From contig CP011265.1 in NCBI GenBank assembly GCA_000972765.1, forward strand, positions 1,736,001-1,800,000: DNA of 64,000 nucleotides. Reading direction: 5' to 3'. This document shows positions 46,757 through 53,268 of this stretch, in pieces. The translations under genes were made by a program, and so were the position numbers. Each line of letters begins with the position of its first letter. Position 1 is the stretch's first letter. Under the pieces are notes generated by a model. It ran no database searches and had not been told where the DNA came from. It worked only from the letters and a program-made list of their open reading frames with translations. Origin of the DNA: Verrucomicrobia bacterium IMCC26134. GTDB lineage: Bacteria; Verrucomicrobiota; Verrucomicrobiia; Opitutales; Opitutaceae.

Positions 46757-48061
46757 ATGTCCTCCGTTACTAATCTCATCGATGACCTTCAATGGCGCGG
46801 CCTTCTGGCCGATTGCACCGACCTCGCGGGACTGCGCGCCCGCATTGCCACCGGTGCTCCGATCACGGTGTATTGCGGCTTCGATCCTACGGGTGATTCG
46901 CTCCACGTCGGTCACCTCATGGGGCAACTCACGCTCGCCCGCTTCCAACGCGCCGGCCATAATGTGATCGCTCTTGCTGGCGGCGCCACCGGCATGGTCG
47001 GCGACCCCTCGGGCCGTTCATCCGAACGCAATCTGCTGACCCGTGAGCAGCTCTCCCATAATATCGCGTGCATCAAAGCGCAGCTTGCCCAATTGCTCGA
47101 TTTCACGGTCACTGCCAATCCAGCCCGTCTCGTCGATAATGCAGACTGGATCGCCCCTATCAGTTTTCTGGATTTTCTCCGGGACGTGGGAAAATATTTC
47201 TCACTCAATGTCATGCTCGCCAAGGATTCCGTGAAATCCCGCATGGAGGGGGATAACGGCATCAGCTACACCGAGTTCAGCTACCAGTTGTTGCAGGCCT
47301 ATGATTTCCTTCATCTGCGCCAGACGTTTAACTGTGAGCTCCAGATTGGTGGCTCAGACCAGTGGGGAAATCTCACTGCGGGAACCGACCTCATTCGTAA
47401 AAAACTTGGCGCCGAAACCTCGTCTTTCGGCTGGACCTTTCCCCTCATCACCAAGAGCGATGGCACCAAGTTTGGCAAAACCGCCGGTGGCGCGCTCTGG
47501 CTGGATGCCAAGCGGACAAGCCCCTACAAGCTCTACCAGTTTTTTGTGAACACGGAGGATACGAAGGTCTGTGAATACCTGCGTAAGTTCACATTCCTCA
47601 CTCGCGCCGAGATAGAACCGCTCGAGGCCGCCCATGCCGCTAACCCCGGCGCTCGCGAGGCCCACAAGGCGCTGGCACGCGAAGTCACTCAACTCGTTCA
47701 CGGTGTGTCTGCGCTCGAAGCTGCACTCAAGGCTTCAGCGATACTTTTTGGCGCCGAGATTGGTGACACGGCCGAGGATACGTTTAATGATGTCGTAGGC
47801 GAAATACCCACGTATGCGCTCGATGCCACCCGACTCTCCTCCCCTGGCCTGGCACTGACGGAAGCCATGTTACTCGTTGCCCTGGAAACTTCCAAAGGAA
47901 ATGCGCGCAAGTCCATCGAGGCCGGCGGCGCTTACGTAAACAATACCAAGTGCGATCCGCTCCAACCTACACGCACCTTGACCGTAGCCGACCTGTTATT
48001 CGGTAAGCATATCTTGCTGCGAAAAGGCAAACGTAGCTACGCCGTGCTGACGGTCGGCTAG
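46757..48061 (+). CDS. tyrS: Tyrosine--tRNA ligase
   Basis: A 434-residue class I aminoacyl-tRNA synthetase that charges tRNA-Tyr. The HIGH motif is HVGH in SLHVGHLMGQL, the KMSKS motif is KFGKT, the tyrosine site is IGGSDQWGNLTAG, and the C-terminal S4 RNA-binding domain ends the protein (NARKSIEAGGAYVNNTK). Length is typical. I saw no T-box leader in the 170 bp upstream. Confidence 0.95.
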   Translation: MSSVTNLIDDLQWRGLLADCTDLAGLRARIATGAPITVYCGFDPTGDSLHVGHLMGQLTLARFQRAGHNVIALAGGATGMVGDPSGRSSERNLLTREQLSHNIACIKAQLAQLLDFTVTANPARLVDNADWIAPISFLDFLRDVGKYFSLNVMLAKDSVKSRMEGDNGISYTEFSYQLLQAYDFLHLRQTFNCELQIGGSDQWGNLTAGTDLIRKKLGAETSSFGWTFPLITKSDGTKFGKTAGGALWLDAKRTSPYKLYQFFVNTEDTKVCEYLRKFTFLTRAEIEPLEAAHAANPGAREAHKALAREVTQLVHGVSALEAALKASAILFGAEIGDTAEDTFNDVVGEIPTYALDATRLSSPGLALTEAMLLVALETSKGNARKSIEAGGAYVNNTKCDPLQPTRTLTVADLLFGKHILLRKGKRSYAVLTVG

Positions 48062-48238
48062 TTTTTTGAGAATAGATCGTCCGATAGGCATGAGGATTAT
48101 GGCTCGTAGGGGTTTTTCGGGCGAAAGCGGTTCGGAAATATGCAAGTCAAGCCCGTGGCCTACGTTATAATTGGCCGTCAATTATGCTTTCCAAACTTGC
48201 ACGACTGGGTGGACGCGCTGTTCTAATTCACACCTCTC

Positions 48239-48709
48239 ATGTCCACGCCTGTCACAGCATTCATTCCTCACCGTCCGCCATTTTTGTTTGTCGATGAGAT
48301 CGTGTCGGAAACCCCTGATAGTCTGACCGCGAAACGCACCTGGCGCGCGGAGGAGGATTTTTATAAGGGGCATTATCCGAATGCCCCCATCACGCCCGGC
48401 GTGCTGCTTTGTGAAGCGGTTTTTCAAACGGGGGCGCTTTTTATGGCCCGTCAGGCGCTAGCGGCAGGAGCCTCTCCAGACGCTGGCGTTCCTTTACTTT
48501 CAAAAATTAGCGACGTTCGCTTCCGCACGCCGATCTATCCAGGCGACACCGTCATCATCGAAGTGAAAAAGAAAGAAGTCATAGGTGGGTTCACCATGAT
48601 GTCAGGAAGCATTAAGAAGGCAGACGGGACCCGCGTGCTGAGCGTCGATTTCACCGTTGCATGGAAAACACCTGAAGGTCAGCAAGCACAGCAACAGGCC
48701 CAGCAGTGA
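48239..48709 (+). CDS. fabZ: 3-hydroxyacyl-ACP dehydratase, FabZ-like
   Basis: A 156-residue hot-dog-fold enzyme removing water from 3-hydroxyacyl-ACP in fatty acid elongation. The catalytic His and Glu are visible in GHYPNAPITPGVLLCEAVFQ, and the N-terminus IPHRPPFLFVDEI fits FabZ. It is the first gene of a tight operon with fabI (15 nt), oleA (5 nt) and oleB (overlap). In this setting it may serve general synthesis or a dedicated hydrocarbon pathway. Confidence 0.88.
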   Translation: MSTPVTAFIPHRPPFLFVDEIVSETPDSLTAKRTWRAEEDFYKGHYPNAPITPGVLLCEAVFQTGALFMARQALAAGASPDAGVPLLSKISDVRFRTPIYPGDTVIIEVKKKEVIGGFTMMSGSIKKADGTRVLSVDFTVAWKTPEGQQAQQQAQQ

Positions 48710-48724
48710 GCCTCCGCACAACAC

Positions 48725-49543
48725 ATGCCCGATTTCTTACAACTTTCCGGTAGAACTTTTCTCGTCCAAGGCGTCGCCAACCGAAAAAGCGTCGCTTGGC
48801 ATATCGGAAAGTCATTGGAGGGGCAGGGGGCTCGCGTCATCTACGCGGTGCGTTCCGAGGCCCGGAAAAAATCCCTCGAGACGCTCCTCTCTGGTAAACC
48901 AGTTTTTGTCTGCGACGTTGAGCAAGAAGGTGCTGCCGCACGGCTCGCCACCGCGGTAGCTGCTGGCGGTTTTACCCCTTTGCAGGGTTTGGTCCACTCC
49001 ATCGCATTCGCCAATTACACCGAGGGATTTAAGCCGTTTCATGAAACAAAACGGGCGGATTTTCTCCAGGCCACCGCTATATCCGCCTTTTCCCTGGTTG
49101 AGCTAGCGAATGCATTCAAACCTCACTTCGCAAAAAATGCCTCGGTTGTAACTATAGGCATATCCTCGCTCGTCGTCACACCTGATAATTACGGTTATAT
49201 GGGACCAATAAAGTCCGCCCTCGAATCTTCGGTCCGGTTTCTGGCGAAATCCTTTAGCGCTGACAGTGAAATTCGCTTTAATGTCATTGGCGCGGGACCG
49301 CTTAAAACCAGTGCCTCCGCCGGCATACCTGGCTATTTGGAAAGCTATCTTTTCGCCGAGAAACTCACCTTTCGAAAACGGAATCTCTCCACCCAAGAGG
49401 TAGCCGACCCAGCGCTCTTTTTACTCAGTGAGCGCAGCAGCGGAATTAACGGAGTCACACTTACCATCGATGCAGGTCTAGGCTCGAATTACTTCGACAA
49501 GGACATCATCCGACTCGCGATGCGAATGGAAGCCAAGCCCTGA
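48725..49543 (+). CDS. fabI: Enoyl-ACP reductase, FabI family
   Basis: A 272-residue short-chain dehydrogenase-fold reductase completing each round of fatty acid elongation. The catalytic pair Tyr156 and Lys163 (NYGYMGPIK) falls at E. coli FabI numbering, and GVANRKSVAWHIGKSL is the FabI nucleotide site. The position corresponding to Tyr146 of E. coli is Ile, so the second active-site Tyr is lost. It lies between fabZ and oleA in one operon. Confidence 0.88.
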   Translation: MPDFLQLSGRTFLVQGVANRKSVAWHIGKSLEGQGARVIYAVRSEARKKSLETLLSGKPVFVCDVEQEGAAARLATAVAAGGFTPLQGLVHSIAFANYTEGFKPFHETKRADFLQATAISAFSLVELANAFKPHFAKNASVVTIGISSLVVTPDNYGYMGPIKSALESSVRFLAKSFSADSEIRFNVIGAGPLKTSASAGIPGYLESYLFAEKLTFRKRNLSTQEVADPALFLLSERSSGINGVTLTIDAGLGSNYFDKDIIRLAMRMEAKP

Positions 49544-49548
49544 GACCG

Positions 49549-50580
49549 ATGCGTTTTAACCACACACTCATCGAGTCCATCGCAGTTGCCTTACCTGAAG
49601 AGGTCTTGAGTTCTGCCATGATCGAGCAGCGCTTGGCCCCTCTCTATGAGCGGTTGCGCCTGCCCGAGGGACGACTTGAACTGATGACGGGAATACGCGA
49701 GCGACGCGTCTGGCCTGTGGGAACGCGGCCTTCGGATGCAAGCGCAGCCGCCGGTCGCGCCGTGCTCGCGAAATCCGGGCTGAACGTCGATCAAATCGAA
49801 CTGTTTATCCACGCCGCAGTGTGCCGTGACATGCTGGAGCCGGCGACAGCAAGTTTCGCCCACCGCAAGATCGGGTTGCCTGCAACGGCGCAAATTTTCG
49901 ACCTTTCCAACGCATGCCTTGGCTGGCTTAACGCACTTACAGTCGCCGCTGGCTTGATCGAAAGCGGACAGATTAAGTGTGCTTTAATATGTTCTGGAGA
50001 AAACGGCGGCCCGCTGGTCGAGCAAACGTTGCGCACGCTTCTCGGTTCACCGCTTGATCGCAACGGCATCAAGCCCTATTTTGCCAATCTCACCATCGGC
50101 TCCGGCTCAGTCGCGGCCATCCTCTGCCACGACTCGATTCTGCCCGCCGGTGCACGCGCCCATCGCCTAAGCGGTGGCATCGCACGCGCAGCCACGACGC
50201 ATAGCGAACTTTGCCAGGGGGATACTCACGGTGACGACGCCCTGGCAATGCAGACCGATAGCGAAGCCCTGCTCTTAGCCGGTATCCAGCTCGCGACCGA
50301 CACTTGGCGTGGTTTCACCGCCGAGTTCGGCAAGACCTTTGACCGCACTATCTGCCATCAAGTGGGAAGCACTCACAGGCGCAAACTCTACGAGGCGCTT
50401 GGACTCGATATCACCAAGGATTTTTCGACCTTCGAGACCCTGGGCAACACCGGTTCGGTTGCACTACCTGCTACACTTGCTGCCGCCGTCGAAGCCGGTG
50501 CGGTCAAGCCCGGAGACAGCGTCGCGCTGCTCGGTATAGGTAGCGGGTTGAATTCCCTCATGCTCGCCGTCGAATGGTGA
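49549..50580 (+). CDS. oleA: OleA-like thiolase (head-to-head acyl-CoA condensation)
   Basis: A 343-residue thiolase-superfamily enzyme. Cys123 (SNACLGWL), His270 (CHQVGST) and Asn300 (LGNTGSVALP) form the triad. DMLEPATAS supplies Glu97, matching the OleA-specific glutamate (Glu117 of Xanthomonas OleA) that FabH lacks, so OleA fits better than FabH. OleA joins two long-chain fatty acyl-CoAs to a beta-keto acid, the first step to olefinic hydrocarbons. The next gene is OleB-like, a standard partner. FabH remains the alternative. Confidence 0.83.
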   Translation: MRFNHTLIESIAVALPEEVLSSAMIEQRLAPLYERLRLPEGRLELMTGIRERRVWPVGTRPSDASAAAGRAVLAKSGLNVDQIELFIHAAVCRDMLEPATASFAHRKIGLPATAQIFDLSNACLGWLNALTVAAGLIESGQIKCALICSGENGGPLVEQTLRTLLGSPLDRNGIKPYFANLTIGSGSVAAILCHDSILPAGARAHRLSGGIARAATTHSELCQGDTHGDDALAMQTDSEALLLAGIQLATDTWRGFTAEFGKTFDRTICHQVGSTHRRKLYEALGLDITKDFSTFETLGNTGSVALPATLAAAVEAGAVKPGDSVALLGIGSGLNSLMLAVEW

Positions 50581-51527
50581 GCGCACTCTCTTTAGTTCTG
50601 CCCTTCCCGATGATTCCAGCCTGGCTAAATTCCATTTATCCCTTTACCCCGCATCGCTTTACTACGCCTGGCGGGGCGCAGATGAGTTACTTGGACGAAG
50701 GCGGGCGAGGGCAGGGTAGTGCGTCTGCCGCCGCGCCCACCTCCGAGGCCGTGCTGATGCTGCATGGCAATCCAACTTGGTCTTTTTACTACCGAGATCT
50801 CGTCAAGACTCTTGCTCCTTCGTTTCGCTGCATCGTGCCAGACCACATAGGCATGGGGATGTCTGATAAGCCCGAATCCTACAACTACACCCTTGGACAG
50901 CGCATTGATGACATCGCCGCACTGGTTGCGCACCTAGGACTGACACGCATCCATCTGGTGGTTCACGACTGGGGTGGGGCGATTGGTTTCGGATTCGCCT
51001 CCCGACACCCTCAAATGATCGGTCGTATCGTCATATTAAATACAGGTGCTTTCCCCTCAACACGTATCCCTGCCAGAATTTCACTCTGCAAATCAACGTT
51101 TCCAGGCACCGCCTTGGTGCGCGGCATGAATGGGTTTGCCTGGCCGGCCACTTGGATGTCGATGGCCAGACGTGAACTTTCAGCCGCTGAAAAGCGGGGT
51201 TATTTGATGCCCTACGACTCGTGGGCCCATCGCGTCGCGGTGAACGCCTTTGTTAAGGATATCCCGCTTTCGCCTGATCACCCGAGTTGGCCGGCGCTGG
51301 TGGCCACAGCAGAGGGTATCTCACGGTTCAGGGGAAACCCGGTGATCATTATTTGGGGCGGCCGTGATTTCTGCTTTAATGATTCCTTCTATGCCGAGTG
51401 GCGCAAACGTCTGCCAGAATCCGAGTCGCTTTACCTTCCGGATGCAGGGCACTACGTGCTCGACGACGCACGCGAGCAGGTGCTCCCTCGTATTTCTAGC
51501 TTTTTTACTGCCTGCGCCACAGGGTAG
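50574..51527 (+). CDS. oleB: OleB-like alpha/beta hydrolase (haloalkane-dehalogenase type)
   Basis: A 317-residue hydrolase overlapping the oleA stop by 7 nt; an in-frame ATG at 50610 (MIPAWLNSIYPFTP) gives the more usual OleB N-terminus. LMLHGNPTWSFYYRDLV forms the oxyanion region and Asp132 in VVHDWGGAIG is the nucleophile, as in haloalkane dehalogenases. OleB converts the beta-lactone made by OleC to an alkene. A low-complexity insert (GGRGQGSASAAAPTSE) follows YLDEG. oleC and oleD do not follow; the next gene is convergent malQ. Confidence 0.83.
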   Translation: MVSALSLVLPFPMIPAWLNSIYPFTPHRFTTPGGAQMSYLDEGGRGQGSASAAAPTSEAVLMLHGNPTWSFYYRDLVKTLAPSFRCIVPDHIGMGMSDKPESYNYTLGQRIDDIAALVAHLGLTRIHLVVHDWGGAIGFGFASRHPQMIGRIVILNTGAFPSTRIPARISLCKSTFPGTALVRGMNGFAWPATWMSMARRELSAAEKRGYLMPYDSWAHRVAVNAFVKDIPLSPDHPSWPALVATAEGISRFRGNPVIIIWGGRDFCFNDSFYAEWRKRLPESESLYLPDAGHYVLDDAREQVLPRISSFFTACATG

Positions 51528-51537
51528 TTACACGCTT

Positions 51538-53094
51538 TCAGGATCGCCCATAGACTTCACCGAGCGATTTCAGGTAAGGTGCGGTCTCGGCGTGAAGGGC
51601 CTGCAGTTGGCCTTCCGAGTAACGCCATTGCCAGTTGCCGGAAGCGACACCCGGGGTATTGAAACGCGCATCCCCGCCCAAGCTTAGCAGATCTTGCATC
51701 GGTATGACCGCAAGGCGACTGACTGCTCCGTAAGCCGCTCGCACAAAGTCCCAGCCTATCTCGCGTCCGTCCACCCGCAGGTAGTTGCGCACGTGATCTT
51801 GTTCCTTTGACGAAGCAGTGCGATACCAGCCAAGGGTGGTGTTATTGTCATGCGTGCCCGGATACACGATCGCATTCGCGGTCAGGTTATGGGGTAGATA
51901 AAGATTAGCGGCATCGCCACCGAAGGCGAACTGGAGGATAGTCATACCAGGCAGGCCGCAAGCATCTCGCAGCACACGCACACTCTCGAAAAGTTCCCCC
52001 AGATCCTCGGCGATAAGCTTGGCATCGGGCAGGGCGCTTTTGACAGCCATGAAAAAGGGAAGTCCTGGGCCCTTCTTCCACTCTCCGGTTTTGGCCGTCA
52101 GCGCTTCTGCCGGGATGGACCAGTAGGTATCGAAGGCGCGGAAATGATCGATCCGCACAACATCGCACATGGCAAAGTTGGCGCGAAGCCGTTGCAGCCA
52201 CCAATCGTAACCCTCGGCGGCATGTTTGGGCCAGTCATAGAGCGGGTTGCCCCAAAGCTGGCCGTCGGCCGAGAAATAGTCTGGCGGAACACCTGCGACA
52301 AAGTCCGGCGTGCCGTTCTCTTGATTGATTTGAAATAATTCTGGACGACTCCACACATCAGCAGAATCACGTGCGACGAAAATAGGGGCATCGCCGATTA
52401 TTTGAATGCCTCGCATCGATGCCGCGCTGCGCACACGAGCCCATTGCCCATAAAATAGATATTGAAAAAATGCATAGGCTTCTGCGCGCTCAATCACTGA
52501 AACGGGAAGGGCGCTGGTCTTTAAGCGTGTGAAAAAGCGGTGCTCTTTCGGCCAGAGCCACCACGGCCGACCCTCGTGGTGGTCTTTAAGCGCCATAAAT
52601 ACACCATAGGCGTCCAACCAACTGGCATTTGACCGGCAAAATACACTGAAATCTCCGTAATCAAGTTTCGTGAATTTACGTCCTTTTGCTGCTGTATATG
52701 CGCGAAACAACACCGGCCACTTCGTTACGTAAAGCCAACCGTAGTCTACATGGTCGCGCGGTAAAACGCGTAAAGTTGCTAGATCAGCACCGTTAATCAA
52801 TCCGGCGTCAACGAGAGCAGCCAAATCTATCAAATAAGGGTTACCAGCGAAGGAAGAGAAGCACTGGTAAGGTGAGTCGCCATAGCCAGTAGGCCCAAGA
52901 GGACAAACCTGCCAATTGGATATTCCTGATGACCGCAGGTAATCCAGAAACCGATCCACCTGACCATCCAAGACTCCTATACCTTGATCGCTAGGGAGGG
53001 AAGTGGGATGAAGTAAAACGCCGCTCTGACGGGTTTTTAACCAGTGAAAGAGCGGGAGTTGAATCGTAAGTGTTGCCGGCACTTGATTAGACAT
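51538..53094 (-). CDS. malQ: 4-alpha-glucanotransferase (amylomaltase, GH77)
   Basis: A 518-residue cytosolic enzyme that transfers alpha-1,4-glucan segments in maltodextrin and glycogen metabolism. Diagnostic stretches are SGVLLHPTSLPSDQGIG, LGPTGYGDSPYQCFSSFAGNP, the nucleophile region VVRIDHFRAFDTYW, the acid/base LIAEDLGE and THDNNTTLGW. glgB lies at the end of the window. It converges on oleB with only 10 nt between stops. Confidence 0.95.
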   Translation of the reverse strand: MSNQVPATLTIQLPLFHWLKTRQSGVLLHPTSLPSDQGIGVLDGQVDRFLDYLRSSGISNWQVCPLGPTGYGDSPYQCFSSFAGNPYLIDLAALVDAGLINGADLATLRVLPRDHVDYGWLYVTKWPVLFRAYTAAKGRKFTKLDYGDFSVFCRSNASWLDAYGVFMALKDHHEGRPWWLWPKEHRFFTRLKTSALPVSVIERAEAYAFFQYLFYGQWARVRSAASMRGIQIIGDAPIFVARDSADVWSRPELFQINQENGTPDFVAGVPPDYFSADGQLWGNPLYDWPKHAAEGYDWWLQRLRANFAMCDVVRIDHFRAFDTYWSIPAEALTAKTGEWKKGPGLPFFMAVKSALPDAKLIAEDLGELFESVRVLRDACGLPGMTILQFAFGGDAANLYLPHNLTANAIVYPGTHDNNTTLGWYRTASSKEQDHVRNYLRVDGREIGWDFVRAAYGAVSRLAVIPMQDLLSLGGDARFNTPGVASGNWQWRYSEGQLQALHAETAPYLKSLGEVYGRS

Positions 53095-53136
53095 AATATT
53101 TATTGTGCGATTATGCGTGTGGTATCAGACAAAGAC

Positions 53137-53150
53137 TTCTGTAGACAGAA
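53137..53150. promoter_or_regulatory. Palindrome upstream of malQ
   Basis: TTCTGT-ag-ACAGAA, a 6+2+6 perfect inverted repeat 43-56 nt upstream of the malQ start codon, a reasonable distance for an operator. It may equally be coincidental. Confidence 0.35.
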
Positions 53151-53268
53151 AGACTTAAGGAAATGGCACAATACCTCACAACTACATAGCTGTGTTTCTC
53201 CCAAAGCCCCTGGCGACGTAATTGATCGCGGCCAGGACTTGATTCCCGACCGCAGGCATCGGTCCGGC

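Follow-up and report, generated by a model that had tools for sequence, protein, structure and literature searches.

The fabZ-fabI-oleA-oleB array

The 64,000-nucleotide stretch analysed here (hereafter the window; positions 1,736,001 to 1,800,000 of contig CP011265.1, Verrucomicrobia bacterium IMCC26134, family Opitutaceae) carries at 48239-51527 a tight, same-strand, operon-like array of four genes, fabZ-fabI-oleA-oleB (Table 1), in which two of the four ole genes stand directly behind a dehydratase-like and an enoyl reductase-like gene; the other two, oleC and oleD, lie elsewhere on the same chromosome, a single contig of 4.0 Mb. The intergenic distances are 15 bp (fabZ/fabI) and 5 bp (fabI/oleA), and in the list of open reading frames (ORFs) oleA and oleB overlap by 7 nt; the oleB start codon at 50574 is located inside oleA, with an alternative ATG at 50610. 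The four genes are presumably carried on a single transcript. A scan of positions 47900-53200 for sigma-70-like promoters returned none on the plus strand, and one in all, on the minus strand, versus 3.3 expected.

The oleA product belongs to the KAS III family in a Pfam search and scores 425.5 bits against the NCBIfam equivalog NF006720 (cut-off 285), compared with 101.3 bits against a FabH subfamily model. Its nearest solved structures are 3row, 3s21 and their kin (193.9 bits; the group ranked next opens at 77.4), which are named 3-oxoacyl-acyl carrier protein (ACP) synthase III in the structure table and which we take to be Xanthomonas OleA. Glu97 aligns with the motif Glu of 3row, residue 117 by the table offset (query 5 = chain 25; 358-residue chains). 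Residue conservation was read from rows with at least 35% identity and at least 80% coverage for all four proteins, several of which come from overlapping genome sets and are not independent. Among 117 aligned OleA sequences, which include the window OleA itself and overlap in species, Glu97, Pro98, Cys123 and His270 are present in all and Asn300 in 116, the last row having a gap; all 117 satisfy the OleA sequence pattern given in excerpts of PMC7158056. According to the available passages of PMC7064751, the motif Glu is the general base particular to OleA homologues, and the Glu-Pro pair is likewise particular to them. OleA is predicted to condense two acyl chains without decarboxylation. KAS III membership and the fab neighbours would also suit a ketosynthase of the FabH type that initiates fatty-acid synthesis; this is almost certainly not the case, as Glu97-Pro98 is the OleA hallmark in those passages, the NF006720 score far exceeds that of the FabH model, and a clear FabH is encoded elsewhere in the genome (NF006829, 421.6 bits, cut-off 249), where it adjoins a gene reading by eye as plsX.

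A second FabH-type protein of 523 aa has an N-terminal lipoyl/E2-like region (L123:2818-4389, ∼3.954 Mb in this genome; G, L and C numbers are our handles for genomes, loci and contigs). In many family genomes the corresponding weaker hits lie in open frames of ∼520-560 aa, which suggests that the lipoyl/E2-FabH fusion is common.

OleB matches PF00561 (101 bits), haloalkane dehalogenase models remaining below cut-off (133.1 of 241), and is 40% identical to the OleB of a contiguous oleABCD cluster (L151). Asn66, Asp132, Trp133 and His293, which comprise the catalytic Asp nucleophile and His, are invariant in 110/110 aligned sequences, and the protein is predicted to decarboxylate a beta-lactone. 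FabZ is recovered by PF07977 (about 70.6-70.7 bits, cut-off 23) and reaches 93.7 bits against NF000582 (cut-off 113), its His and Glu being invariant in 107/107 aligned sequences. The top NCBIfam matches of FabI are FabI models, the best at 163.4 of 370 bits and all below cut-off among the 25 best of 89; against solved FabI chains it scores up to 127.5 bits, and Tyr156 and Lys163, seven residues apart as in FabI-type SDR proteins, are invariant in 112/112 aligned sequences. Because these family matches fall below the equivalog cut-offs, FabZ and FabI read as divergent members of their families.

An earlier reading made from the letters alone (the sequence-only reading) had proposed the same four genes at the same coordinates, and the four same-strand, closely spaced ORFs bear this out. 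It had also singled out Glu97 as diagnostic of OleA, in agreement with the Glu97-Pro98 pair and with the NF006720 score above cut-off, and had allowed for a plain FabH, for which the separate FabH and the Glu-Pro of the window protein leave little room.

Table 1. Genes of the array and the convergent neighbour (window coordinates).
Gene and predicted product	Position	Strand	Features
fabZ-like, 3-hydroxyacyl-ACP dehydratase	48239-48709	+	156 aa; His45, Glu59
fabI-like, enoyl-ACP reductase	48725-49543	+	272 aa; Tyr156, Lys163
oleA, non-decarboxylative head-to-head condensing thiolase	49549-50580	+	343 aa; Glu97, Cys123, His270, Asn300
oleB, haloalkane-dehalogenase-like beta-lactone decarboxylase	50574-51527	+	317 aa; Asn66, Asp132, Trp133, His293
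malQ, 4-alpha-glucanotransferase	51538-53094	-	NF011080, 642 bits (cut-off 477)

The oleC-oleD pair and the split layout in the family

The genome contains eight AMP-binding and 12 3-beta-HSD stretches, and one of each is adjacent near 3.577 Mb, ∼1.79 Mb from oleAB, where the oleC and oleD ORFs overlap by 4 bp. OleC scores 608.6 bits against NF006754, above its cut-off of 478; its second best match is the olefin beta-lactone synthetase model NF045786 (526.2 bits, below the cut-off of 900). For the OleD candidate, the two OleD models come top (NF042422 with 334 bits, the other with 301) and the next kind reaches 114. With OleC above cut-off and OleD as the best family in the same genome, a genuine absence of oleC and oleD was rejected. 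The sequence-only reading had described the operon as being without these two genes, which holds for the locus and fails for the genome; the genome search that it proposed recovered OleC and the OleD candidate, and the possibility it left that they lie elsewhere is the one supported.

The four ole genes do not form one cluster here, and with the exception of G028 the examined loci of the family show the same split. Among 61 family genomes, OleA is above cut-off in 57, OleC in 58 and both in 54, the seven misses falling in seven different genomes: for OleA, G032, G042 and G058 have partial matches and G036 none; for OleC, G010 has pieces, G051 internal stops, and G055 nothing better than 1.2e-36. 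An OleD match lies beside OleC in 26 of the 30 OleC loci fetched with a 1.5-kb flank (in L173 it is end-cut and ∼0.9 kb off). By comparison, neither an OleC match (thresholds 33% identity and 150 aa) nor an OleD match (threshold 40% identity) is present in any of the 35 OleA loci that extend at least 5 kb to each side; all 35 are from a set of 68 loci, 33 having fab genes and the other two (L117 and L118) being included without them. OleD matches of 31-33% located 6-9 kb upstream in some loci were taken as other, putative dehydrogenases. The separation of oleAB from oleCD is therefore the pattern of the family.

The order around oleA was counted in three locus sets that share species. OleA has FabI immediately upstream in 29/30, 64/68 (65 with room) and 18/24 loci; FabZ is upstream of FabI in 29/29, 61/61 (loci with room) and 17/18; and OleB is downstream in 30/30, 64 and 22, respectively. 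The fabZ-fabI-oleA-oleB order is far beyond chance. In the 68-locus set, only L117 and L118 (Victivallales and Lentisphaerae by title) have room and yet show neither neighbour; OleA stands there with no OleB, FabI, OleC or OleD detected alongside. The same four genes are present in L103 (Geminisphaera colitermitum TAV2), with the FabZ match in two pieces; this strain is reportedly among those shown to make olefins.

Downstream of the array, the sequence-only reading had placed malQ as convergent just beyond oleB, and the gene indeed faces oleB 10 bp past its end. A convergent malQ is found within 1 kb in 8/21, 44/63 and 3/13 loci with room (30-, 68- and 24-locus sets, respectively); it is a neighbour outside the olefin pathway. 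Elsewhere in the window, positions 1491-2239 hold 6.4 tandem copies of a 117-bp unit, with 88% matches.

The fabZ-fabI pair and acyl supply

We compared the distribution of FabI with that of OleA in 188 genomes of the class. OleA (E ≤ 1e-80) was found in 32 of the 33 listed genomes of the order versus 1 of the 155 others, and the window FabI matches 33/33 listed order genomes with 61-100% identity, while identity does not exceed 40% in the 77 other genomes that have a match. Judged by coordinates, FabI adjoins OleA in 27 of the 32 order genomes having both; in the other five it is ∼8 kb (G220) or ∼105 kb (G193) away or on another contig (G091, G108 and G225). G153 has FabI and no OleA passing 1e-80. 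Tight fabZ-fabI pairs with no oleA alongside occur at L230, L231, L232 and L240, and at L241 with a 480-bp gap. Because FabI is kept without a detected OleA in G153 and the pairs stand without an adjacent oleA, fabZ-fabI seems to form a unit of its own in the order, to which oleAB is attached in most sampled members. FabI is also closer than OleB to the window protein in 88/88 loci with both (63-88% versus 45-76%), as would be expected of a core gene. G153 and the closer conservation lead us to favour a role of FabI in bulk lipids over one mainly for OleA.

The donor of OleA is probably acyl-ACP, used directly, rather than acyl-CoA, because no fatty acyl-CoA ligase above cut-off was found and because PMC6463001, in the portions available, proposes acyl-ACP as the in vivo substrate from an E. 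coli host without fadD. The AMP-binding stretches comprise an acetyl-CoA synthetase, OleC, a relative of acyl-ACP ligase/acyltransferase proteins (two ORFs), a MenE-like ligase and a further, weak match, while two stretches share a single 1876-aa frame; none of the eight is a fatty acyl-CoA ligase above cut-off, the two in the 1876-aa frame having been left unscanned. The acyl-ACP ligase/phospholipid acyltransferase relative (NF006386; L008:278-2499, ∼0.674 Mb in this genome) consists of two ORFs overlapping by one base; either the gene is split or frameshifted, or the sequence is in error there. A PfaA-type polyunsaturated synthase was rejected as precursor source, as the large ketosynthase frame has a KS-ACP-DH-aminotransferase order, although no search with Pfa models was made. 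This protein of 1324-1325 aa (L181:8645-12619, ∼3.923 Mb in this genome) is the only large ketosynthase frame.

A probable split olefin pathway and its relation to known systems

We consider it likely that these genes encode the ordinary OleABCD head-to-head olefin pathway in a split form, with fabZ-fabI-oleA-oleB in the window and oleC-oleD ∼1.79 Mb away. Its steps are established for these families (PMC7158056 and PMC6463001, in the parts available). By analogy, OleA would condense two fatty acyl chains, the resulting 2-alkyl-3-ketoacid would be reduced by OleD, OleC would close the beta-lactone, and OleB, encoded at the window locus, would remove CO2 to yield the cis-olefin. FabZ and FabI would be general fatty-acid elongation enzymes of this Verrucomicrobiota order, and co-expression of their genes with the attached oleAB may couple acyl supply to hydrocarbon synthesis.

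Several observations weigh against the split pathway or against the general role of its fab genes. On the ole side, the OleD candidate is below the 580 cut-off of the OleD models (334 bits); L162, L169, L176 and L179 show no OleD near OleC, even in wider stretches (L242-L245); OleA has no OleB beside it in G193 (L208/L248) and G225 (L209/L249), genomes of ∼2 Mb in which no FabI, OleC or OleD was detected beside it either; and G055, 94% complete, has an intact fabZ-fabI-oleA-oleB array (L246, C14:385000-398500) and no OleC better than 1.2e-36. On the fab side, FabI stops short of its NCBIfam cut-off (163 of 370 bits), the FabI of G181 and G225 (2/33 order genomes) has a stop inside the match, and the window genome also encodes FabV, another enoyl-ACP reductase (635 bits, cut-off 400), as well as two additional stretches of the FabA/FabZ family, so that the FabZ and FabI of the operon are not necessarily the principal enzymes of their kind. 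Because FabV is present, the idea that FabI is the only enoyl reductase was rejected. For FabK, the best PF03060 stretch lies in a 494-aa frame and scores 40 bits, above the family cut-off of 28.

FabV also lends weight to another reading, in which FabZ and FabI would be second copies dedicated to OleA, supplying it alone with a special acyl chain, and membrane lipids would be served by other enzymes (FabV and a FabZ-type domain at 0.58 Mb). This reading would account for the adjacency of FabI and OleA in 27/32 genomes and for a FabA/FabZ-family domain, in a 485-aa frame, that scores 123.2 bits compared with ∼70.6 for the operon FabZ. It is however rather unlikely, since FabI is kept in G153, where OleA has no match, lies away from OleA in G220, G091, G108, G193 and G225, and stands alone among the 18 PF13561 stretches of the genome, none of the others being closely related to it. 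Far less probable is a variant pathway, raised by the sequence-only reading, in which lactone formation is replaced: either FabZ and FabI would convert the reduced OleA product into a 2-alkyl branched acid, or OleB would cleave the OleA product. The tight gene array and G055, where no OleC accompanies the intact four genes, speak for it, but this genome carries oleC and the oleD candidate, OleC is found in 58/61 family genomes, OleB retains Asn66, Asp132, Trp133 and His293, and fabZ-fabI pairs exist without an adjacent oleA and once without a detected OleA; the variant was not borne out. There is likewise only a slight chance that some members, with G055 as the candidate, have lost OleC and that FabZ there dehydrates the reduced OleA product, which FabI then reduces to yield a 2-alkyl branched long-chain acid; if so, this route would be an ole-fab hybrid producing a mycolate-like lipid from two fatty acids. 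Taken together, these considerations leave the split OleABCD pathway as the preferred reading.

The phylum has been counted as ole-bearing, and an earlier olefin-production survey is reported to have used species of four Gram-negative phyla including Verrucomicrobia (PMC7158056, in excerpt). The PVC lineages with olefin genes in their metagenome-assembled genomes (MAGs) include Opitutaceae (PMC10176705, in excerpt). The fabZ-fabI-oleA-oleB layout is not mentioned in the titles, abstract openings and passages searched, a scope outside which falls the 2010 survey of Sukovich et al., which may show it. We file the layout as a variant arrangement of a known pathway. Because the survey criteria, as excerpted, require oleBCD homologues within 5 kb of oleA (PMC7158056) or two flanking ole genes within a window of six genes (PMC7064751), gene-neighbourhood surveys could under-count this order, although the adjacent oleB may rescue some members. 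The long-kept link of oleAB to elongation genes, in a genome where no fatty acyl-CoA ligase above cut-off was found, provides a natural test of acyl-ACP use by OleA in the cell.

Compared with the oleABCD systems of the Xanthomonas and Shewanella types, all four enzymes are recognisable in this genome, with the Glu-Pro pair and the Cys, His and Asn of OleA, the Asp and His of OleB, an OleC above one family cut-off and OleD as best family; unlike in these systems, oleAB follow fabZ-fabI and oleCD are ∼1.79 Mb off. Three ole gene contexts are listed in the available part of PMC7064751, none of which is fabZ-fabI-oleA-oleB. The cluster of the family member G028 (L024, L151) similarly has recognisable OleA, OleB, OleC and OleD homologues, but there oleA-B-C-D are contiguous and OleA is ∼40% identical to the window OleA; G028 has a second OleA on contig C200. 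The pfa-linked ole genes of marine bacteria resemble the window locus in that ole genes are linked to genes building acyl chains, with acyl-ACP as the proposed donor (PMC6463001, as excerpted), whereas the link in the window is to type II fabZ-fabI and the ketosynthase frame of this genome does not look like PfaA.

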